NCBI GenBank assembly: GCA_027365475.1
Contig: DAHXNI010000007.1
Span: 1-64,000 of the forward strand
Direction of reading: 5' to 3'
Length of the DNA stretch: 64,000 nt
From: Pseudomonadota bacterium
GTDB taxonomy: Bacteria > Pseudomonadota > Gammaproteobacteria > JAKAQQ01
Of this stretch, positions 9,341 to 30,721 are shown one piece after another. Every line of letters begins with the position of its first letter. Position 1 is the first letter of the stretch. The notes under the pieces are model-generated. The model was not told the DNA's origin and made no database searches. It saw only the letters and a program-made list of their open reading frames with translations. The position numbers and the translations under genes are program-made.

Positions 9341-9516
9341 TGCTCGTTCTCGATACCAACGTTGTGCCTGAACTCCGCAAGATGTGGTCTGGGTCAGCTG
9401 ATCCCCGGGTTGCAAAATGGGCGGACCGCATCAAGGCGATTCGCTTCACAGTTCGTGGACCACGAGCCATAACAGGACCAGGACCACGAACTCCAGGAAG
9501 AACGATCCCAAGGTGA
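9340..9516 (+). pseudogene. VapC-like PIN-domain toxin, N-terminal fragment
   Basis: Begins MLVLDTNVVPELRKMWSG, the classic PIN start with the first catalytic Asp in LDTN, continuing DPRVAKWADRIKAIRF. Similarity ends there, exactly where the convergent membrane-protein gene (stop at 9446) begins; the remaining codons are the complement of that gene. The later acidic residues of the active site are missing, so the nuclease is dead. With the overlapping antitoxin tail it marks a decayed type II toxin-antitoxin locus. Confidence 0.6.
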
Positions 9517-9853
9517 CGAGTGCCACGGTGAGATAGCGCAGACGTTGCCCGTCCGGTCGCCGCTGCATCTGCTGCACGATCCAGAACATGACCGCGAAGT
9601 TGATGATCCAGAGAATGGGCTTGCCGACGAATGGCACATCCCGCATGAACCAGCCCAGAAGCAGGTCGACCAGGACGATCGTGGCGAAGCTCGCCAACAT
9701 GATCGTGAGCGCCTTTCCGAAGGAGGGCATGAACTTGAGGAAGATCCGGAACGATAGCATCAAAAAGAGTGAGCCGAACAGGAGCGAGAGGAAGATCAGC
9801 CCGATAATCACAGCGGGGCCCAGATTCCCCAAGGCAAACAGCTGATTGAACAT
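9446..9853 (-). CDS. Small four-helix inner-membrane protein, last gene of the exopolysaccharide-type cluster
   Basis: 135 aa, no family recognised. Four hydrophobic segments are visible: residues ~10-35 (AVIIGLIFLSLLFGSLFLML), 45-65 (ALTIMLASFATIVLVDLLLG), 75-92 and 105-130. A short basic loop (QQMQRRPDGQRLR) lies between helices 3 and 4. It lies 108 bp after the phosphatase-like gene on the same strand, so co-transcription is likely but coupling looser than among the upstream genes. A helper of the polysaccharide synthase or an unrelated membrane protein are both possible. Confidence 0.7.
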   Translation of the reverse strand: MFNQLFALGNLGPAVIIGLIFLSLLFGSLFLMLSFRIFLKFMPSFGKALTIMLASFATIVLVDLLLGWFMRDVPFVGKPILWIINFAVMFWIVQQMQRRPDGQRLRYLTVALVTLGSFFLEFVVLVLLWLVVHEL

Positions 9854-9961
9854 ACACTACCTCCGGAGTCTGTTGTGTTTTGAAGTTGGACGAAGTTCCG
9901 AGATGGCGCCCACACCCGGACAGGCGCCCTCGACCAGAGAGACGGGAGCCCTTAACCGGTT

Positions 9962-10519
9962 TCAGGGGTTGCCTTGGGGGACGGCTATCCCCTCCCGGTT
10001 TTTGCCGAACCATTTAATGAGCATGGAAGCGACATCGCCGACGCGGTGTTTGCCAAGATAACAATGAATGTACATCTTGACACGGGGATACTTCCGGATG
10101 AGCACCCGGATGTTATGCATCGCCCGGGCGTTCAACGCACTGCCGGGCGGCTGGGCGCTGTCCATCGGAAAGTTGTAAGCAGTCATGCCGAGCTCTTTTG
10201 TGAGGTGATCCTCTCGTTCGATGAGCGATTTTTCATAGATGAGGTGGGGATCTAGCAGTGAAACAACGATCCGAATCCCCCGATGGTGCAGGTTCTTGAG
10301 CAGACCCTCATCCGGGTAGGGGCCGACGATGATCTTTTGGCTCACGTGGTGCACATTCCCCTGCAGGTAGTGCAGAGGGAAAAGAAACGGTTCGAAGACC
10401 GCAAAGTTGGCGAGAAAAAGATACGCCGGAGTGGCCAGAATCACAGCTAGAAGCAGAAGACGCAGAAAGATCCCAAACAGCTTGCTGATCATGGCACCGA
10501 CTCGCAGGTGGAATCTCAT
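9962..10519 (-). CDS. Membrane-anchored dual-specificity/tyrosine phosphatase-like protein
   Basis: 185 aa. A basic N-terminus and one transmembrane helix (about residues 14-42, LLLLAVILATPAYLFLANFA) precede a phosphatase-fold domain. The signature loop HCYLGKHRVG fits the CX5R motif (Cys nucleophile, Arg phosphate binder), and the Asp in FPMDSAQPPG could be the general acid. The usual Ser/Thr after the Arg is Val here. By the positive-inside rule the domain would face the periplasm, unusual for this family. The start overlaps the synthase stop (ATGA), implying translational coupling. A role in tuning or finishing polymer synthesis is inference; activity may be lost. Confidence 0.78.
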   Translation of the reverse strand: MRFHLRVGAMISKLFGIFLRLLLLAVILATPAYLFLANFAVFEPFLFPLHYLQGNVHHVSQKIIVGPYPDEGLLKNLHHRGIRIVVSLLDPHLIYEKSLIEREDHLTKELGMTAYNFPMDSAQPPGSALNARAMHNIRVLIRKYPRVKMYIHCYLGKHRVGDVASMLIKWFGKNREGIAVPQGNP

Positions 10520-11934
10520 GGTGCACGACCCGGAATGGTCTTGCGGTCCGCGTGTCCCCAGTGCGTTTGGCTCACCTGAAAGGTCGCGATCAGCCGTTCA
10601 ACCGCGAGAACCTGACGGTATCCGAGATACTCGAGTGAACCCAGAATGGCGATGCGATAGGAATCAAACAGGCTTTCATACTTGTGAAGGACGAAATTGT
10701 CGAGGAGGACGGCTGCGGCATTGAGCCACATGCCCCACAGGATCGAGATGGTGAAGAACAGAAAGGCAAAGACCGGGTTCAGCATGTGAAAGATGAAAAA
10801 CAGCACAAATCCGAGATATCCGACGAACTCGATGAGGGGCCCGAACAGCTCGATGAACAGGAAAAAAGGCATACCGAGGGTTCCGACCCGGCCATATTTG
10901 GGATTGAACAGCATGGTCCGGTTGTGCCAGATGCTGTCCACCAAGGCCCGCTGCCACCGGTTGCGCTGGCGCAGCAAGGAAGGGAAATCACTCGGGACCT
11001 GTGTCCAGCAGACCGGCTCCGGGATGAAGTACACCTTGTACTTGATCTCCTGCTCCACGCAGTAGCGGTGGAGACGGAGGACGACATCCATGTCCTCTCC
11101 AACCGTCTTCCGGTACCCCCCGACGGCCAGGATCAGATCCTTCCGGAAAATACCAAATGCACCCGAAATGATCAAGAGGCTCTCATATTCGCCAAGCGTG
11201 ACTCGGCCGGCCATAAAGCCGCGGAGGTATTCCACAATCTGAATGTTGGTGAGGATACTGCGGGGGGAACGGATCTTCTTGACCCGGGAACCTTCGACCA
11301 CACATCCGTTCAAGACCCGGACCGATCCGCCAGCCGCGATCAGGTTCCGTTCGATGAGAAACTGGTGCCCCATGCGCAACAGTGCATCGGGATCCAAGAT
11401 CGAGTCGGCATCGATGGCGCAGAAGAGCGGATAACGGCTGTAGTTGAGGCCACAGTTCAGGGCGTCGGCCTTGCCACCGTTTTCCTTATCAATCACCCAG
11501 ATCTGCGGGAGGCGCTCCGAGACGTATACCGCGCGCACAGTTTCCGTCTCGATGGTCTTCCGTTCCGGCCGGTCGATCGGTACCAAGCCAAATGCATCCT
11601 TCAGGCACTTGAGCGTGTCGTCCGTCGATCCGTCATTGACAACCACGATTTCGTAACGGGGATAGTTGATCTGGGTGGCCGCCAGAATTGTCTCGACAAG
11701 GGTCACCTGTTCGTTGTATGCGGGGATGACGATCGTAATAGGCCGGAGATTGGCTGAGCATGTGAGGGCGAGCAGCCGGTCGAGGTCAGGTGCAGCTTCG
11801 CTTGACTCGCGCAGGTGGCGAAAGGCAAAGAACGTGATATAGGTATAGGTTCCATTGATGATCAGGAATGCCAGAAGGATCAGCACCTGGAAGCAGAGCA
11901 GGGTATTGCCGATCGACAGAAAGGTGATGATCAT
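10516..11934 (-). CDS. Processive family 2 glycosyltransferase (polysaccharide synthase)
   Basis: 472 aa inner-membrane enzyme. An N-terminal helix (FQVLILLAFLIINGTYTYIT) is followed by a GT-A domain: IVIPAYNEQVTL, VVVNDGSTDDTL, metal-binding FCAIDADSILD, acceptor-site VGEDMDVVLRLHR and QRNRWQRALVDS (QxxRW). Three or four C-terminal helices would form the export channel. This is the layout of hyaluronan/cellulose/PNAG-type synthases, which polymerise a nucleotide sugar and thread the chain across the membrane; the sugar cannot be inferred. It overlaps the HEAT gene and the phosphatase-like gene by 4 bases each. No PilZ domain is seen, so c-di-GMP control is not evident. Confidence 0.9.
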   Translation of the reverse strand: MIITFLSIGNTLLCFQVLILLAFLIINGTYTYITFFAFRHLRESSEAAPDLDRLLALTCSANLRPITIVIPAYNEQVTLVETILAATQINYPRYEIVVVNDGSTDDTLKCLKDAFGLVPIDRPERKTIETETVRAVYVSERLPQIWVIDKENGGKADALNCGLNYSRYPLFCAIDADSILDPDALLRMGHQFLIERNLIAAGGSVRVLNGCVVEGSRVKKIRSPRSILTNIQIVEYLRGFMAGRVTLGEYESLLIISGAFGIFRKDLILAVGGYRKTVGEDMDVVLRLHRYCVEQEIKYKVYFIPEPVCWTQVPSDFPSLLRQRNRWQRALVDSIWHNRTMLFNPKYGRVGTLGMPFFLFIELFGPLIEFVGYLGFVLFFIFHMLNPVFAFLFFTISILWGMWLNAAAVLLDNFVLHKYESLFDSYRIAILGSLEYLGYRQVLAVERLIATFQVSQTHWGHADRKTIPGRAP

Positions 11935-13028
11935 CTGGACTCCGCTGCAAGGGCGAACGCGGCCATATGACGGACCTCCGGTCGTGTATCCTCTTGCCGC
12001 TCCAGCAAAGCGCGATGCCCGTATGCACCCATGTTCATGAGGGTCTGGGCAGCTGCGTAGCGGACGTTGAAATCCGGCGAGGCGAGCTGTTCACTCACCT
12101 GTGACACGATGTCGGGACCACAGCTTTCTGCGGCGCGAATGGCTGCGATATTCAGCATGAGGTTGGCTGCTCCGATGTGCTCGCCAATCATCGAGTCACA
12201 AAGCTCCATGCTCTGGAGGCTCCGCAGGGTGGCTGCAGTGAGCCGCTCATGGCCCCGCAGACGAGCCATACGCACGAGCGTATCCTTGAAGCACACGAGT
12301 TGTTCCTGCCCGATAGCCAGGATCAGGGCCAAAAGATGCTGTTCATCGGCCCGGTTGTCCCTGAGGCAGTATTCCAGGGCCGCATTCAGCCGTTCGGGTG
12401 CGATACCCAGTCGCTGGAGAGACTGAATCGCAATTCGGAACATCCCTTCGTCGTAACCCGTCGACAGGTCCGGGCGGGATGACGTGAGATCGAACAGGGT
12501 TTTCACCTGGGACGGCTCAGAGACGAGGTGGGCGCCTGCATACAGGCAGATCCCGAAGATCTTCATGTTTTCTTCGGCATAAGCAAACTCGACCACTGGC
12601 GCAAACAGCTCGGGCAGTCTGAGATCTCCGCAGGCGGACACTGCCCGGTAGCGCTGGGCCCAGTCTTGTGCGTCGAGTGCTCTTAAGGCGATCGCCGGGG
12701 CGCCCGTTTTGCGAATCGCACCGAGCAGGACGGGGTCCGCGGTGCCGGTTGAGCCCAGCTTTTTCGTGAGCGCAGACCCGAGTGCCGAAACCTGTTCGAG
12801 ATCGTGCACCGTAGGCAAGGGCGACTCGTCACCGGCCAAAAGCAGGGTAAGTGCACGCTCATTGAGGTCGACTTGCTGCTGAAAGAGACGCGACCGTTTT
12901 AGGGTGTGGCGTTTGTGGAAACCGAGACTGATGAAAAGGGCCACGATCGACACGCCGAAAATCGCAATGACCATCCAGAGCAGAACAACCGTCAAATAGT
13001 GGGAAACGGCCATGTTGAGAGTGTGCAT
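11931..13028 (-). CDS. Membrane-anchored HEAT-repeat protein partnered with the GT2 synthase
   Basis: 365 aa. One N-terminal transmembrane segment (LTVVLLWMVIAIFGVSIVAL) is followed by a strongly basic stretch (HKRHTLKRSR), which predicts that the large C-terminal domain is cytosolic. That domain is all helical with HEAT-like pairs, for example LASPDFNVRYAAAQTLMNMG followed by RPEVRHMAAFALAAES. It starts directly after the TAG of the upstream gene, with its ribosome site (GGAGGTGG) inside that gene, and overlaps the synthase by ATGA. It is probably a scaffold or regulator of the synthase in the inner membrane (inference); no catalytic motif is visible. Confidence 0.8.
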   Translation of the reverse strand: MHTLNMAVSHYLTVVLLWMVIAIFGVSIVALFISLGFHKRHTLKRSRLFQQQVDLNERALTLLLAGDESPLPTVHDLEQVSALGSALTKKLGSTGTADPVLLGAIRKTGAPAIALRALDAQDWAQRYRAVSACGDLRLPELFAPVVEFAYAEENMKIFGICLYAGAHLVSEPSQVKTLFDLTSSRPDLSTGYDEGMFRIAIQSLQRLGIAPERLNAALEYCLRDNRADEQHLLALILAIGQEQLVCFKDTLVRMARLRGHERLTAATLRSLQSMELCDSMIGEHIGAANLMLNIAAIRAAESCGPDIVSQVSEQLASPDFNVRYAAAQTLMNMGAYGHRALLERQEDTRPEVRHMAAFALAAESR

Positions 13029-15287
13029 CTACCACCTCCGGGTGAGCGAAAGATAAAGTCCCCGGCGGTCGTAAAGGCCCGATCGGTAGTCGTCGAAAAC
13101 TGCCACGTTGAGTGAAATCCGGTGGGTGAGCTCAAACACTTCTCCAAGCCTCACCCCGTAGCTCGGCGTGCGCAGGATGGAATTCTGCACAATCAGCTGT
13201 TCTCCAGCCTCGCCGGCCGTGAGATAGAGGTAGGTCCTGTTGATCCCGCCATGAAACCACTCGGGTGCCACAAGGAAGCTGTAGGCATTGGTTTCCGGAA
13301 CATAGTAGAGGCCGGTCTCAAGATGCACATGGCGATCCGGATAGAATCCGACACCTCCGAAGATGATGTTGGCTACAGCGTTTGAAAATATGAGGTGTCG
13401 CACGCTCATATCCAGGGAAAACGCGCCCACACTCTTCGACAGGGCCATCCCAAGACTTTCATGTGCCAGGATGGTGTCATTCGGGCTGTATCCGACCGAA
13501 AACTCTCCCGAAGCACCGGCGCCGAAAGCGGTGTAGAAATCGACGCCGAAACTCTCGGCGGTCTGGCCGAAGCGGTGAATGCGCTGCGCGCTCGCCACGA
13601 AGGTCCCGTCCGCTGCCGGGAGGCCGGCCCGGATGCCGAACTGGTTGTCGGAGGGATAGGCGCCGGTTGAGTTCGCGATGCCGCCATCGAGGGAGACAAA
13701 GTGACGGTACAGCCGCGTGAGACTGACCCCAAGCGAACCGAAAACCAAAGCCTGCTCTGACGGGTTGAGCGCAGCCAGTTCGCCTCTGGCAGCTCTCGCA
13801 TGGCCTGCCTGCACTCGCGTGACGACGGATGCTACGGCGAGATCCCGGTCCTTGGGATAGCGGGCGGCCAGCTGGGCATCAATCCGTGCCGCCTGTCTGT
13901 TCTGGTGCAATTGGCCATATGCCCTTGCGAGCACGAGTCCGCTGTCATACGGATCGCGGCCACTCCGATAGAGCGGACGGACTGTCCGGATGGCGCGTCT
14001 GGGTTCGTGCGCAGCCAGCTCGGCACGCGCTTCGGCAAGCGTTGCCCGGGTACGGAGATTTTCCGCCGCCGCGCCGAGCGCACGATCCCTGGGATAACGG
14101 CGAGCCAGTACGGCATAGATCCGTTCGGCACGCGCAAAATGGTGGAGCGCCACCTCAGCACTTGCGAGCACGAGTCCGCTGTCATACGGGTCGCGGCCAC
14201 TTCGGTAAAGCGGACGGATCGTCCGGATGGCGCGTCTGGGTTCGTGCGCAGCCAGCTCCGCACGCGCTACTGCCCGTGTTTTCTGGATACTCAGGTTTTC
14301 CGCAGCCACCGCGAGCGCACGGTTTTTCGGATAACGTCCCACAAGCCCGTGATAAATCCGGGATGCGTGGTTGATCCGGTGTTCGCTGGCATAAGCCTCG
14401 GCCAAGATGAGTTTCGCATCATAGGGAGCAGAGCCGTTCGGATAGCGGGTCCGTATCCGGCGGATGGCCAGCGCGGGTTGATGGTCGATCAGCGCCGCAC
14501 GCGCAGCAGTCAGGATGGCTCTCGTGCGCAAACTGTCTGCCTCGCGACCCAACCTCGGATCCTTGGGGTAACGGCGGGCCAGTGCGGCATAGACCGCATC
14601 CGCCCGCCTGAGATGGTGCTCGGCCAGATCCGATTGGGCCAGAATCAGTCCGGCACGATAGAAGTTGGGTCCGTTTTGGTATGCAGGTGTGGCCCACCCG
14701 ATCGCCTGGGCGAAATGTCCGGCATGGAGTGCCGCTTGCGCCCGGTCGAGCACGGCGCGGTTTTTCAGCTCGCGAACCAGGGGGAGTAGCGTGGAATCAC
14801 CGGGGTATCGTGCCGCCAGTGCGGATCCCATCGCGATGGCCTGGTTCAGGTGATGCTCAAGAATGTCGGATCGCATCAAAATCACGCCGGCACGGTACGG
14901 ATCCGGTCCCTTTGGGTACCAGGGAGTCATGAGACGGATCGCACCAGCCGCATCGCCTTTCCGGAGGAAGCTCGCGGCGCGGGCGAACGTGAAGTCCTGG
15001 TTGCAGTGGGCGATGGCGCGTCGCACGGCAGCAGATTTGATGGGCGTTGCAATTTGCCGGATCAATTGTTGGGCTTGGACATACTCGCCGGTACGGCAGC
15101 GGGCCCCAAGGGCCAGAGCCACGATACCCGGATGTGCGGCATACTCCAGGCCGAGTGAGGTCGATGCCAAGCTACTCGTGACCGGATGGCGGATCACAAA
15201 TGTCTGGTACACGAAACCGATCGCCAGGGCACCGATGGCTATTGCAACCAGAAGCCCGACCGTCCACTTAATGGTTTTTGATTGCAT
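13029..15287 (-). CDS. TPR protein with YaiO-like outer-membrane beta-barrel (exopolysaccharide exporter candidate)
   Basis: 752 aa from ATG 15287, chosen for the AAGGAGG just upstream and the membrane segment that follows (WTVGLLVAIAIGALAIGFVY). Residues ~90-520 hold about five TPR-like modules of ~79 aa with the pattern YRSGRDPYDSGLVLA and ARRYPKD. The last ~230 residues alternate polar and hydrophobic residues like a barrel and end in LYLSLTRRW, an outer-membrane C-terminal signature, resembling YaiO. TPR plus barrel is the architecture of PgaA and BcsC, which guide polymer through the outer membrane. The start overlaps the lipoprotein gene by about 20 bases. Confidence 0.82.
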   Translation of the reverse strand: MQSKTIKWTVGLLVAIAIGALAIGFVYQTFVIRHPVTSSLASTSLGLEYAAHPGIVALALGARCRTGEYVQAQQLIRQIATPIKSAAVRRAIAHCNQDFTFARAASFLRKGDAAGAIRLMTPWYPKGPDPYRAGVILMRSDILEHHLNQAIAMGSALAARYPGDSTLLPLVRELKNRAVLDRAQAALHAGHFAQAIGWATPAYQNGPNFYRAGLILAQSDLAEHHLRRADAVYAALARRYPKDPRLGREADSLRTRAILTAARAALIDHQPALAIRRIRTRYPNGSAPYDAKLILAEAYASEHRINHASRIYHGLVGRYPKNRALAVAAENLSIQKTRAVARAELAAHEPRRAIRTIRPLYRSGRDPYDSGLVLASAEVALHHFARAERIYAVLARRYPRDRALGAAAENLRTRATLAEARAELAAHEPRRAIRTVRPLYRSGRDPYDSGLVLARAYGQLHQNRQAARIDAQLAARYPKDRDLAVASVVTRVQAGHARAARGELAALNPSEQALVFGSLGVSLTRLYRHFVSLDGGIANSTGAYPSDNQFGIRAGLPAADGTFVASAQRIHRFGQTAESFGVDFYTAFGAGASGEFSVGYSPNDTILAHESLGMALSKSVGAFSLDMSVRHLIFSNAVANIIFGGVGFYPDRHVHLETGLYYVPETNAYSFLVAPEWFHGGINRTYLYLTAGEAGEQLIVQNSILRTPSYGVRLGEVFELTHRISLNVAVFDDYRSGLYDRRGLYLSLTRRW
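13927..14312. repeat. Tandem DNA repeat, 237-bp period, inside the TPR gene
   Basis: Two adjacent copies about 150 bases long, starting near 13927 and 14164, are almost identical at DNA level; both encode the protein stretch AAHEPRRAIRT and PLYRSGRDPYDSGLVLA. The 237-base offset equals 79 codons, one TPR-type module. The identity suggests recent duplication or gene conversion. Confidence 0.8.
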
Positions 15288-16404
15288 GCGCTCCCTCCTT
15301 GAGACCGTCGATGATCCAGCCCCCAAAACTTCCGTATCCGGGACGTCGATCGATGAGACGGGCAACGGAGCCCATGTCCGGGTAGAACGAAAGGGCCGAC
15401 CCGTGCACCTCGTAATGCAGCGCAATGCGGCCGGAAGGCGGCTTTTCCCCCGCGAAGTAAAGGTGCCCGTGGTGATTCCGGATATCGCGTCTGAATTGCC
15501 GACGGGTCAGGAAATAGTGCAATTGATTTGGCATAGGGGCCATCTCGACACCCAGCTCGACCGATTTGCCCATCAGCTGACCTGCGCAGAGACCGTTGCG
15601 GGCGAGCGCCAGGATCTTCCGGTAGTGGGAACGGTAGGCCATGATCGTGATGCCATCCGCCTGACGCAGGACAACGGCAAGCAGGTTTCCTGGCCCCCAC
15701 CGGATCTGGTCGAACCAGAAGGGTACCACCACGCTCCAGGGCAAACTGCTCCCGATCCGGATCCTGAGTTTGCGGAGGAGCCGGACATAGCGCGCATAAA
15801 GCTCGCGACGGTGTTCGGCAAAGCCTTTGAGGACATAGGGTTCGATGTCGAACTGGAGACCGGAGAACCCGTGGCCGTGCAGGCGGTTGAAGGCTAGGAC
15901 TGCTCCAACGGCATGATCCACCCGGTGCCAATGATCGATATCCGAAGGGTCGCCCAGTGTCGCATATACCGTGATCCCCCGCGATTCGATCTCACGCAGC
16001 ATCGGGGCATCGGCAGAAAGATTCCCGGACACAGCGAGATATAGACGGTTCAGGTGCAAGCTACGGACCTGCTTCAATAGAACCGAAAGAGCACCATGCT
16101 GGTCGAGAAGCCGCTGGACGTGCCAGATCCAGGCGCCTCGCACCGTATGTGGGGGAGACTTGCGGGGCTCGCAGGCGGGACTGACAGGAATCGCCGGGGG
16201 AGAAGACGGCAAATGCTTGAAATAGGAGATCTGATCCGGTCGCATAGCTGTGTAAGTGACTTCGACATAGCGAGCCTGATCCAGAAGATGTCGGTCAACC
16301 GGTACCCGCGTGGGACGTACCGGCGCGCTTGCACAACCACCGAGAATCCCCAAGGCGACTAGCCATGCGGGTACAAGGATTTTTGTTAAATCTGGAAGCT
16401 GCAA
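15268..16404 (-). CDS. Lipoprotein with a glycosidase-like TIM-barrel domain
   Basis: 378 aa. A signal peptide ends in a lipobox (LGILGGCAS), so the mature protein is lipid-anchored facing the periplasm or outer membrane. The body reads as a TIM-barrel glycoside hydrolase of GH18 or PgaB-like type: HLNRLYLAVSGN, GFSGLQFDIEPY (D-x-E at a strand end, likely acid/base) and GITIMAYRSHY, which parallels the GH18 MxY strand. First gene of the exopolysaccharide-type cluster. By analogy with PgaB it may trim or bind the nascent polymer (inference). Exact family uncertain. Confidence 0.75.
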   Translation of the reverse strand: MQLPDLTKILVPAWLVALGILGGCASAPVRPTRVPVDRHLLDQARYVEVTYTAMRPDQISYFKHLPSSPPAIPVSPACEPRKSPPHTVRGAWIWHVQRLLDQHGALSVLLKQVRSLHLNRLYLAVSGNLSADAPMLREIESRGITVYATLGDPSDIDHWHRVDHAVGAVLAFNRLHGHGFSGLQFDIEPYVLKGFAEHRRELYARYVRLLRKLRIRIGSSLPWSVVVPFWFDQIRWGPGNLLAVVLRQADGITIMAYRSHYRKILALARNGLCAGQLMGKSVELGVEMAPMPNQLHYFLTRRQFRRDIRNHHGHLYFAGEKPPSGRIALHYEVHGSALSFYPDMGSVARLIDRRPGYGSFGGWIIDGLKEGAHAIKNH

Positions 16405-21577: not shown

Positions 21578-21634
21578 TCCCACGTTTAACAAAGACACTG
21601 GACACGAAGAACCGTGTGGGTTACAGTCACCCTC

Positions 21635-23377
21635 ATGGATGCCGAACCTTACGCGACCGTAACGCGACCAGAGATCCCCGATGCGAGGCTCACGCCATTC
21701 GCGCAGGTGTCGGTGACACTGACCCAACAAGAGTATATCCAACTCGTGTGGGACGCCCGGTACTGGAAGACGGCGCATCGACGGGTACTGGCCCGCCTAG
21801 AGCAACTGACCGTCGATCACCAGCGGGCCAGGGCCCAAGCGGCCCTGCGCGAGACGGCATTACAGGGCGAGCTAGAGACCGCGCAGGCGAAGATTCGTGA
21901 TCTGCAAAAGCGGCTGTTTGGTCGTAAATCCGAGCATTCCGCGCAGGGCCCTAAGGGGCTCACGCGGGATATCCCATCATCCCGATCGCGCGGTCAACAA
22001 CCGGGCACACCCGGTCACGGGCGTACCCTACAAGCCCATCTACCCGCGCACGAGGAAACGGTCGCAATCGACTCGTCACAGTGTCCGTCATGCGGGTTGG
22101 GCTACGCGGACTTCCCGGGCACCGAAGACAGTGAGGTGCTAGAGATTGAGGTCCAGGCCTATCGGCGTGTCATCCACAGGCGGCGCTATCGCAAGGTCTG
22201 CTCCTGCCCAGGCGTGCCCGGCCTCATCACCGCACTACCCCCGCCACGATTGATCCCGCGGGGCAAATACGGTATTTCGGTTTGGGTGCACCTGCTACTC
22301 TCCAAGTTTTTGTACGGCCAACCCACCCATCGCGTGTTGCAGGACTTGGCCAATTCGGGGTTGACCCTGTCGGAAGGCACCGTCGCCGGGGGGCTCAAGG
22401 CCCTGGCACCTTTATTTGCGCCTGTCGAAGAGGCGCTGGTGGTCCATCTGCGCAGCGAATCCCACTGGCATGCCGATGAGACCCGCTGGATGGTGTTTGT
22501 CGACATCGAAGGCAAGGTCGGACATCGCTGGTACTTGTGGGTGTTTCAGTCCCCATCGGTTATTCACTACGTACTGGATCCCACGCGATCAGCTGATGTC
22601 CCCATCGCCGAATTGGCCGAGGCACAGGGTGGGATCGTGAGTTGTGATCGTTACTCGGCCTACAAGAAGTTCGTCCGGCTGCATACGACATTCGTGCTCG
22701 CTTTTTGTTGGGCCCATCAACGCCGGGATTTTCTGGAACTGGCCAACCGCTACCCCGACCTGTCGCCGTGGGCGATGACGTGGGTGGATGCCATAGCCGA
22801 TCTGTACCATCAGAATGGGCTGCGCCTTCAGGCGGACCCTGACAGCGTCGAGTACGCCGCGCACCACGCCCGATTACAACAGGCCGTGCATGACCTGGCC
22901 ACCCGGCGCGATGAGGCACTGGCCGACCCCCGGCTCGCCTTTCCTGCGGCCCAGGTCCTGCACAGCATGCAGAATCACTGGTCGGGCTTGACGGTGTTTG
23001 TCGAACACCCGTGGGTGCCCATGGACCATAATGTCGCCGAACGCAGCGTGCGTATTTCTGTGGTCGGACGCAAGAACTTTACCGGCTCGGGCTCCGCGTG
23101 GTCGGGGCAACTGGCGGCTACCATGTACAGCCTCCTGATGACCGTCAAGCTCTGGGGGATCAACCCGCGCATGTGGTTGAGCGCCTACTTGCAGGCCTGC
23201 GCCGACAATGGCAACCAGCCCCCATCGAACCTCGGCGCGTTTCTTCCCTGGACCATGGAGCCCGCCCGACTGGCCACCTTGCGGGCGGGCCCCGCAGGTC
23301 CGCGCCCAGACGCCGCCTCTGGCGCGCACACGCAGCAGACAACACATACCCCCACCGAAGGATTCAACACCTCATGA
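21635..23377 (+). CDS. tnpC: IS66-family transposase (TnpC)
   Basis: 580 aa from ATG 21635 (GTG 21614 is an in-frame alternative). IS66 layout: N-terminal coiled coil (LETAQAKIRDLQKRLFGRKS), HTH/zinc region (CPSCGLGYADF), and catalytic DDE core with HWHADETRWMVF, IVSCDRYSAYKKF and the glutamate in PMDHNVAERSVR. The C-terminus shows the usual SLLMTVKLWGINPRMWLSAY. It catalyses movement of the element. Its stop overlaps the start of the DruA-like gene by ATGA, so the two are translationally coupled. Frame intact. Confidence 0.92.
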   Translation: MDAEPYATVTRPEIPDARLTPFAQVSVTLTQQEYIQLVWDARYWKTAHRRVLARLEQLTVDHQRARAQAALRETALQGELETAQAKIRDLQKRLFGRKSEHSAQGPKGLTRDIPSSRSRGQQPGTPGHGRTLQAHLPAHEETVAIDSSQCPSCGLGYADFPGTEDSEVLEIEVQAYRRVIHRRRYRKVCSCPGVPGLITALPPPRLIPRGKYGISVWVHLLLSKFLYGQPTHRVLQDLANSGLTLSEGTVAGGLKALAPLFAPVEEALVVHLRSESHWHADETRWMVFVDIEGKVGHRWYLWVFQSPSVIHYVLDPTRSADVPIAELAEAQGGIVSCDRYSAYKKFVRLHTTFVLAFCWAHQRRDFLELANRYPDLSPWAMTWVDAIADLYHQNGLRLQADPDSVEYAAHHARLQQAVHDLATRRDEALADPRLAFPAAQVLHSMQNHWSGLTVFVEHPWVPMDHNVAERSVRISVVGRKNFTGSGSAWSGQLAATMYSLLMTVKLWGINPRMWLSAYLQACADNGNQPPSNLGAFLPWTMEPARLATLRAGPAGPRPDAASGAHTQQTTHTPTEGFNTS

Positions 23378-29473: not shown

Positions 29474-30721
29474 ATGGCAAATGTTACTACCCCTCAAGCA
29501 CTCGACGTTGCTGACCCTGCCCTTAGTGCCCATCTCGAAGTCTGTCTTCACGAACTGATTGAGCATGGGTATTCCCCCCTGACCGTTGGATACTATCGCC
29601 GCAGCCTCGCCCATTTTGTGCATTGGTTGAGCCAAGAGAAGATCGCCGGCAGCGAGATCGGCGAGGCCTTAGTGCAACGCTTTCTCACGTCCCATCTGCC
29701 GGCATGCGATTGTATCGGGCGGTGCCAACGTGATGAGAGAACCCTCCGCGCGGCGCTCAATCATCTCCTTCGCTCCCTGCGTGCCCATGGACAGATCGCT
29801 GTGAATCGTACGGGCACGGAGGCGGTGGAAGAAGAAATCCAACGTTACGATTGTTATCTCGACAAGACTTGTGGTCTCGCTTTCAAGACCCGTCAGGTGC
29901 GAACGTGTTTGATCCGCGCGTTTTTGTCGGAGCGCACTGCGCGAGGCGTTGCGGGTCTCGCCCTGGGTGCGCCCCGGGAGATTCGTGAGTATGTGATGCG
30001 CGCCACGCAGGGATGGACGCGGGGTTCAGCTGCAGTGCTGTGTGGAGCGTTGCGCAGTTACCTGCGCTTTCGCGCCTTTCAAGGCGAATCGAGCGAGGCG
30101 CTCTTGGCTGCGGTGCCCACCGTCGTCCAGTGGCCGGGGGAATCGTTACCACGCACCCTTACGGACGAAGAGATCGCGCGTTTCCTCAGCGCGTTTGATG
30201 ACCAAAGCCTGGTGGGTCGCCGCAATTACGCCATCGCCCGCTGTCTGGTGGATCTGGGGCTGCGCGCCGGGGAGGTCGCGGCCTTGATGCTTGAGGATAT
30301 CGATTGGCGCGCGGGCACTTTGCAATGTAAGCACACCAAGGGCGGCCGCGCAGACGTGCTCCCCTTGCCGGTCGCCACCGGAGAGGCGATCGTGGCATAC
30401 CTTCAGCAGCGCCCGGCCGTCTGCGCACAGCGTGTGCTCTTTGTGCGCCAACAGGCGCCCTTCGATCAACCGCTCACGGTAGAGATAGTGGGCTATGCGA
30501 TGAGCCGAGCCTATGTGCGCTCGGGTATCGCCAAACCGTGGGGCGGCACCCATTGTCTGCGCCATAGTCTCGCGTGTCGTCTGGTGAATGCCGGAACGCC
30601 GCTTAAAGCCATCGCTGATGTGCTGCGTCATCGCAGCCTCAATACCACGATGATCTATGCCAAGGTCGATGTGGTCCAACTCTCGCACGTCGCCATGCCC
30701 TGGCCGGGGAGGGTGTCATGA
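29474..30721 (+). CDS. Tyrosine recombinase 1 of the RIT element
   Basis: 415 aa, the longest of the trio, with an N-terminal SAM-like DNA-binding region and a C-terminal catalytic domain. Catalytic residues: Arg in LVDLGLRAGEVAAL, Lys in CKHTKGGRADVLPL, HxxR in GTHCLRHSLACR, His in VLRHRSLNTTMIY and the nucleophilic Tyr in that same stretch. GGAGAG lies 8 bases before the ATG. Its stop overlaps the next start by ATGA. It should cleave and rejoin the element ends together with the other two. Confidence 0.9.
   Translation: MANVTTPQALDVADPALSAHLEVCLHELIEHGYSPLTVGYYRRSLAHFVHWLSQEKIAGSEIGEALVQRFLTSHLPACDCIGRCQRDERTLRAALNHLLRSLRAHGQIAVNRTGTEAVEEEIQRYDCYLDKTCGLAFKTRQVRTCLIRAFLSERTARGVAGLALGAPREIREYVMRATQGWTRGSAAVLCGALRSYLRFRAFQGESSEALLAAVPTVVQWPGESLPRTLTDEEIARFLSAFDDQSLVGRRNYAIARCLVDLGLRAGEVAALMLEDIDWRAGTLQCKHTKGGRADVLPLPVATGEAIVAYLQQRPAVCAQRVLFVRQQAPFDQPLTVEIVGYAMSRAYVRSGIAKPWGGTHCLRHSLACRLVNAGTPLKAIADVLRHRSLNTTMIYAKVDVVQLSHVAMPWPGRVS

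Follow-up and report, generated by a model that had tools for sequence, protein, structure and literature searches.

GT2 synthases of the QxxRW type polymerize at the inner membrane and translocate the chain. Synthase-dependent exopolysaccharide systems are defined by an inner-membrane synthase, a c-di-GMP regulatory domain or co-polymerase, a periplasmic modifying enzyme, and a TPR domain coupled to an outer-membrane pore, and a survey lists five polymers of this kind (PMC7112194). Among Escherichia coli systems, PgaABCD (NC_000913.3, 1086106-1092289) shares with the locus described here a GT2 synthase, a TPR and outer-membrane barrel protein, and (putatively) a periplasmic glycan-active enzyme in one operon, and BcsABCZ with BcsG shares a synthase, a TPR/barrel exporter, and (again putatively) a periplasmic hydrolase. 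Besides, NfrA/NfrB with YbcH has in common with it a GT2 and an outer-membrane export protein, and the YaiO/YaiP/YaiS locus a YaiO barrel with a GT2 nearby.

We analyzed a window of 64,000 nucleotides (contig DAHXNI010000007.1, assembly GCA_027365475.1) from a Pseudomonadota bacterium (Gammaproteobacteria; JAKAQQ01), in which six genes lie on the minus strand from 16404 to 9446. The original prediction of five touching genes with a sixth 108 bp further on agreed with the positions of all six open reading frames, which are as follows in their order along the minus strand.

15268..16404, minus strand: glycosidase-like lipoprotein (378 aa; TTG start, lipobox LGGC, DIEPY motif)
13029..15287, minus strand: TPR protein with a C-terminal YaiO-family outer-membrane beta-barrel (752 aa from the ATG at 15287; TIGR04390, Pfam YaiO)
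11931..13028, minus strand: HEAT-repeat protein with one N-terminal TM helix (365 aa; Pfam HEAT_2)
10516..11934, minus strand: processive GT2 polysaccharide synthase, putative in activity (472 aa; Pfam GT2; NDG, DAD, GED, and QRNRW motifs)
9962..10519, minus strand: membrane-anchored CX5R phosphatase-like protein (185 aa; HCYLGKHR; fold search)
9446..9853, minus strand: small membrane protein with four hydrophobic segments (135 aa; no known family)

The TPR/YaiO gene likely starts at the ATG at 15287, overlapping the lipoprotein gene by 20 bp, and the TTG at 15425 that opens its longest reading frame is a less likely start; it ends at 13029, one base ahead of the first base of the HEAT gene. 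The HEAT (13028-11931) and GT2 (11934-10516) genes share a 4-bp ATGA overlap, as do the GT2 and phosphatase-like (10519-9962) genes; the start of the small membrane gene is at 9853. Within the TPR-encoding portion of the barrel gene (13921-14597), a direct-repeat search revealed three 203-nt direct repeats spaced at 237 bp (identity to the reference, 81% and 61%), which were undetected by Tandem Repeats Finder. The same window also carries an IS66-family transposase (21614-23377) and a phage-type integrase (29474-30721).

The identities proposed earlier for the six products were borne out, with YaiO, HEAT, and GT2 above Pfam/NCBIfam cut-offs and the phosphatase recognized by fold search. The GT2 (Pfam GT2, E = 1e-21) combines the processive motifs with TM helices on either side of the catalytic domain, as in an inner-membrane polysaccharide synthase, and its 472 residues contain only GT2 domains. 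In accordance with its predicted processivity, PgaC_IcaA was its best-scoring curated model; a lipid glycosyltransferase was rejected on the motifs and on the clade described below. We infer that the GT2 produces a polymer. The second protein couples TPR repeats to a YaiO barrel at residues 533 to 752 (TIGR04390, E = 6.1e-21, 75 bits against a cut-off of 32; Pfam YaiO, E = 4e-13, 50 bits), a TPR domain joined to an outer-membrane pore, and judging from these matches it is a putative export channel. The HEAT protein (Pfam HEAT_2, E = 5e-9, 36.8 bits against a cut-off of 27.7) has a TM helix at residues 15 to 33 followed by a net charge of +5. Since most HEAT members share this N-terminal arrangement of a TM helix and positive charge, the solenoid should be cytosolic and might there gate the synthase or act as its scaffold.

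We estimate a probability of about 0.7 that the cluster is a synthase-dependent exopolysaccharide machine in which a membrane-anchored cytosolic HEAT partner replaces the c-di-GMP co-polymerase. In such a machine, the GT2 would build the polymer from a nucleotide sugar at the inner membrane and extrude it through a channel of its own, and the HEAT protein, with one TM anchor and a cytosolic solenoid, would contact it and serve as an obligate partner or as a regulator in the place held by c-di-GMP co-polymerases (PgaD, BcsB/PilZ, and Alg44). The accessory proteins have putative roles: passage of the chain through the periplasm and the outer membrane for the TPR/YaiO protein, trimming of the chain for the lipoprotein glycosidase, and, for the phosphatase, possibly either activity toward phospho-substituents or regulation.

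The parallel drawn earlier with the PgaABCD and BcsABCZ machines holds, as a synthase, a TPR/barrel protein, and a hydrolase-like lipoprotein are present, and so does the predicted absence of a co-polymerase/PilZ part. A Pfam scan of the GT2 and the other five proteins detected neither PilZ nor another regulatory domain, and no c-di-GMP-binding domain or co-polymerase among the six, although a non-canonical site is possible; the one PilZ match in the genome is located on a different contig. Compared with PgaABCD, the window has a HEAT protein for PgaD, a YaiO-type barrel for PgaA, no deacetylase, and a GT2 outside the PgaC branch. Compared with Bcs, it has neither a BcsA with PilZ nor a BcsB match (Pfam), and its GT2 scored 44 bits against the CelA cut-off of 699, although related loci add a BcsG-like sulfatase-family transferase. 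Filing the cluster as Pga or Bcs was thus rejected on curated scores, domains, and gene content. NfrAB and YaiO/YaiP were also rejected as its identity because their gene content differs: NfrB has 745 aa, against 472 aa for the window GT2, and is annotated as c-di-GMP activated, with no HEAT gene at nfrAB, and the YaiO/YaiP/YaiS locus has no HEAT protein, a putative deacetylase (YaiS), and a GT2 (YaiP) far from the HEAT-linked clade. By analogy, the cluster appears to work like a synthase-dependent system that is neither Pga, Bcs, nor Nfr.

The lipoprotein had no Pfam match and matched one solved homologue, PDB 10yv, a "putative GH97" (E = 1.5e-12). Its low-confidence model (pLDDT 51) has eight strands, mostly alternating strand and helix as in a (beta/alpha)8 barrel, with DIEPY at the end of the fourth strand. 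The exported lipoprotein is a putative periplasmic or outer-membrane-anchored glycan hydrolase and would be the likely periplasmic polysaccharide-modifying enzyme of the system. Its five top fold matches were all E. coli PgaB, with TM-scores of just 0.25 to 0.29 for this low-confidence model, and a profile comparison with PgaB (hhalign) gave nothing significant, so that kinship with PgaB is a lead only. These matches nevertheless bear on an alternative that we regard as improbable, namely, that the cluster is a diverged PNAG (Pga) operon whose GT2 makes poly-beta-1,6-GlcNAc, with the lipoprotein as a hydrolase-only PgaB, TPR/YaiO for PgaA, and HEAT for PgaD. Besides the PgaB fold matches, it can draw on PgaC_IcaA as the top curated GT2 model and on GlmS beside one haloarchaeal copy. 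However, the GT2 reached 129 bits against a PgaC equivalog cut-off of 422, the PgaA model (PGA_TPR_OMP) gave the barrel 12 bits against a cut-off of 366, no deacetylase family matched any of the six proteins (Pfam), and other sugar genes accompany the Legionella copy.

Phylogenetic analysis also argues against a Pga operon. HEAT-linked GT2s formed one clade distinct from PgaC, with support of 96/96 in a first tree, which placed an unreliable NfrB row inside the clade, and of 84/97 in a second tree, from which NfrB, YaiP, and the genome's other GT2s were dropped as too divergent or too short; PgaC lay outside the clade in the second tree.

The HEAT-bearing machine that we favor is best supported by the linkage of its two central genes. 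In 43 of 43 loci examined, a count inflated by near copies and representing fewer independent lineages, a HEAT gene lies directly beside the GT2, often with a 4-bp overlap, and one pair (L050) is convergent. These loci, including 15 from other genomes of the class, 10 from a phylum sample, and 12 from named plasmids, span several phyla and haloarchaea; among the hosts are Deinococcus, Paenibacillus, Planococcus, Mesorhizobium, Erythrobacter, Devosia, Legionella, Emticicia, Bacteroides, and three haloarchaea. A first HEAT model of ten sequences missed L088, which was detected by a broader model itself built from most of the counted loci; in 10 of the 12 plasmids, the HEAT name is the record's own PGAP annotation, independent of the profile models. 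The window shows the same association, with a GT2 inside the clade and an adjacent HEAT gene. Not every genome has the pair: among 369 sampled from the class, a GT2 of the clade type (E <= 1e-40) occurred in 17.

It might be argued that the HEAT gene is a mere frequent neighbor with an unrelated role and that the synthase works without it, and the HEAT sequences are indeed very divergent (mean identity, 18%). We consider this very unlikely in view of the linkage across several phyla and of the annotations around GT2s outside the clade (Prevotella and Acidithiobacillus plasmids; E. coli PgaC, BcsA, NfrB, and YaiP), none of which has a HEAT neighbor. Furthermore, distances among the HEAT proteins are correlated with those among the GT2s (r = 0.80; 0 of 2,000 permutations), a figure that still includes shared host descent.

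Within the window's family, the HEAT, small membrane, and glycosidase-like genes each occur in exactly the same four of nine genomes. The three relatives besides the window keep the HEAT-GT2-phosphatase-small membrane order, and this, together with the shared distribution, implies that the cluster is more than chance. In these relatives, the assembly is interrupted within the barrel or HEAT gene, probably because of the 237-bp TPR repeats. The glycosidase-like gene is on a separate contig, and in two of the three it sits at the extreme end of that contig; unbroken six-gene contiguity was seen only in the window. Beyond the family, two metagenome-assembled genomes with GT2s 53 to 54% identical to that of the window have a HEAT-GT2 pair facing a divergent operon of a YaiO barrel, a sulfatase/LTA-synthase-type transferase, and a glycosidase. 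A YaiO barrel accompanies the pair in most Gram-negative loci (above the cut-off in the window, L039, L043, L044, L048, L054, and L085). Thus, the homologues do co-occur, and the rare co-occurrence that would have refuted the original proposal was not seen. The six-gene set is nevertheless not the conserved unit: sequence comparison indicates a conserved core of HEAT and GT2, usually with a YaiO barrel and often with a receiver-domain protein, and the six-gene set is a lineage-specific version of this wider system.

The phosphatase-like protein fell below Pfam cut-offs by sequence, and its AlphaFold model (mean pLDDT 74) matched DUF442, plant PFA-DSP, and SIW14 phosphatases in Foldseek, with E values down to 2e-6. 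It is predicted to be N-in with its domain in the periplasm. The P-loop (HCYLGKHR) is invariant in four relatives, and the likely general-acid Asp is Asn in two, so phosphatase activity is not assured. Besides the window's family, L054 also has the gene; the small membrane protein occurs only in the four family genomes holding the cluster. The two are lineage-specific additions and not co-polymerase replacements, which leaves standing one half of the proposal that a cytosolic HEAT protein and a phosphatase take the co-polymerase's place: the HEAT protein beside the synthase. Short open reading frames past the GT2 in L016 (11380-11676) and L017 (11380-11634) resemble only the N-terminal TM segment of the phosphatase, an apparent remnant.

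The DIEPY glycosidase, the sulfatase/LTA-synthase-type transferase, and the phosphatase are recurring optional modules. The glycosidase was counted in 8 of the 43 loci (the window and seven others, including Bacillota and Alphaproteobacteria), and in the class sample all four strong matches (E < 1e-40) were in genomes with the GT2 pair and nine weaker ones in genomes without it. The glycosidase profile also matched proteins of approximately 670 to 710 aa in genomes without the pair (L104 to L109), PgaB-like in length and with no PgaB or deacetylase match; the one in L109 carries an outer membrane efflux (OEP) domain, which hints at another glycan export setting. A long open reading frame at L102 resembles HlyD and is perhaps not the one that the profile matched.

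Genes of the LTA-synthase/sulfatase type occur in five of the 43 loci, one weakly matching phosphoglycerol transferase I. Together with the phosphatase, they could be taken to indicate that the product is no exported matrix polymer and is instead a short glycan or glycolipid of the periplasm or surface, decorated with phosphoglycerol or phosphoethanolamine in the manner of osmoregulated periplasmic glucans or teichoic-type polymers. This seems to us quite unlikely: a TPR and outer-membrane barrel protein is present in most Gram-negative loci, the GT2 has processive-synthase motifs, the window has no gene of this type, and such transferases, as E. coli BcsG, also decorate exported cellulose (PMC8461298). 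In an exopolysaccharide machine, a BcsG-like transferase would join the set in related loci, as would a stand-alone receiver.

A receiver-domain match was found within a few kilobases of the pair in 26 of the 43 loci, with no stand-alone receiver gene at the window locus. Among the short receivers (<160 aa), the phospho-acceptor motif is intact in most, with Pfam applied to one of them. For two loci, L039 and L058, the receiver counted as nearest lies on the opposite strand, and L039 also has one on the same strand. The haloarchaeal loci keep receiver-HEAT-GT2 and have no barrel, and haloarchaea lack an outer membrane. This reduction suggests that these three form the core of regulation and that the barrel serves export in Gram-negative bacteria. 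Signaling by c-di-GMP is not known to be general in archaea, which fits control by another route. We tentatively propose, at somewhat less than even odds, a further synthase-dependent class in bacteria and haloarchaea, in which the HEAT solenoid replaces c-di-GMP control and, in the majority of lineages, is switched by a phosphorylated stand-alone receiver, with trimming and phospho-decoration modules added by lineage.

As anticipated, no named system with the same six-gene set was found in the open-license PMC literature, nor was a paper describing a HEAT and YaiO set; the text of PMC7112194 contains neither HEAT nor YaiO, and the 2021 review PMC8461298 does not contain HEAT. The Sinorhizobium meliloti APS operon was considered as it is described in PMC7902896, and passages in PMC12419801, PMC3826837, and PMC3174227 were unrelated to the HEAT-GT2 set. 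If the set makes another polymer, many genomes annotated with just "HEAT repeat protein" and "glycosyltransferase" carry an unrecognized matrix system, and the haloarchaeal trio of receiver, HEAT protein, and synthase would be a very small model for synthase control, perhaps without c-di-GMP.

The polymer may differ by lineage, as the sugar-nucleotide genes near the pair differ. In Halosolutus, GlmS and a sugar-phosphate nucleotidyltransferase follow the pair, and in Legionella a nucleotide-sugar dehydrogenase and epimerases flank it, which points to GlcNAc in the haloarchaeon and to an oxidized or epimerized sugar in Legionella. In Planococcus (L041, 1807-4663), the pair follows genes for a polyphosphate polymerase domain protein, a DUF4956 protein, and a CotH kinase.
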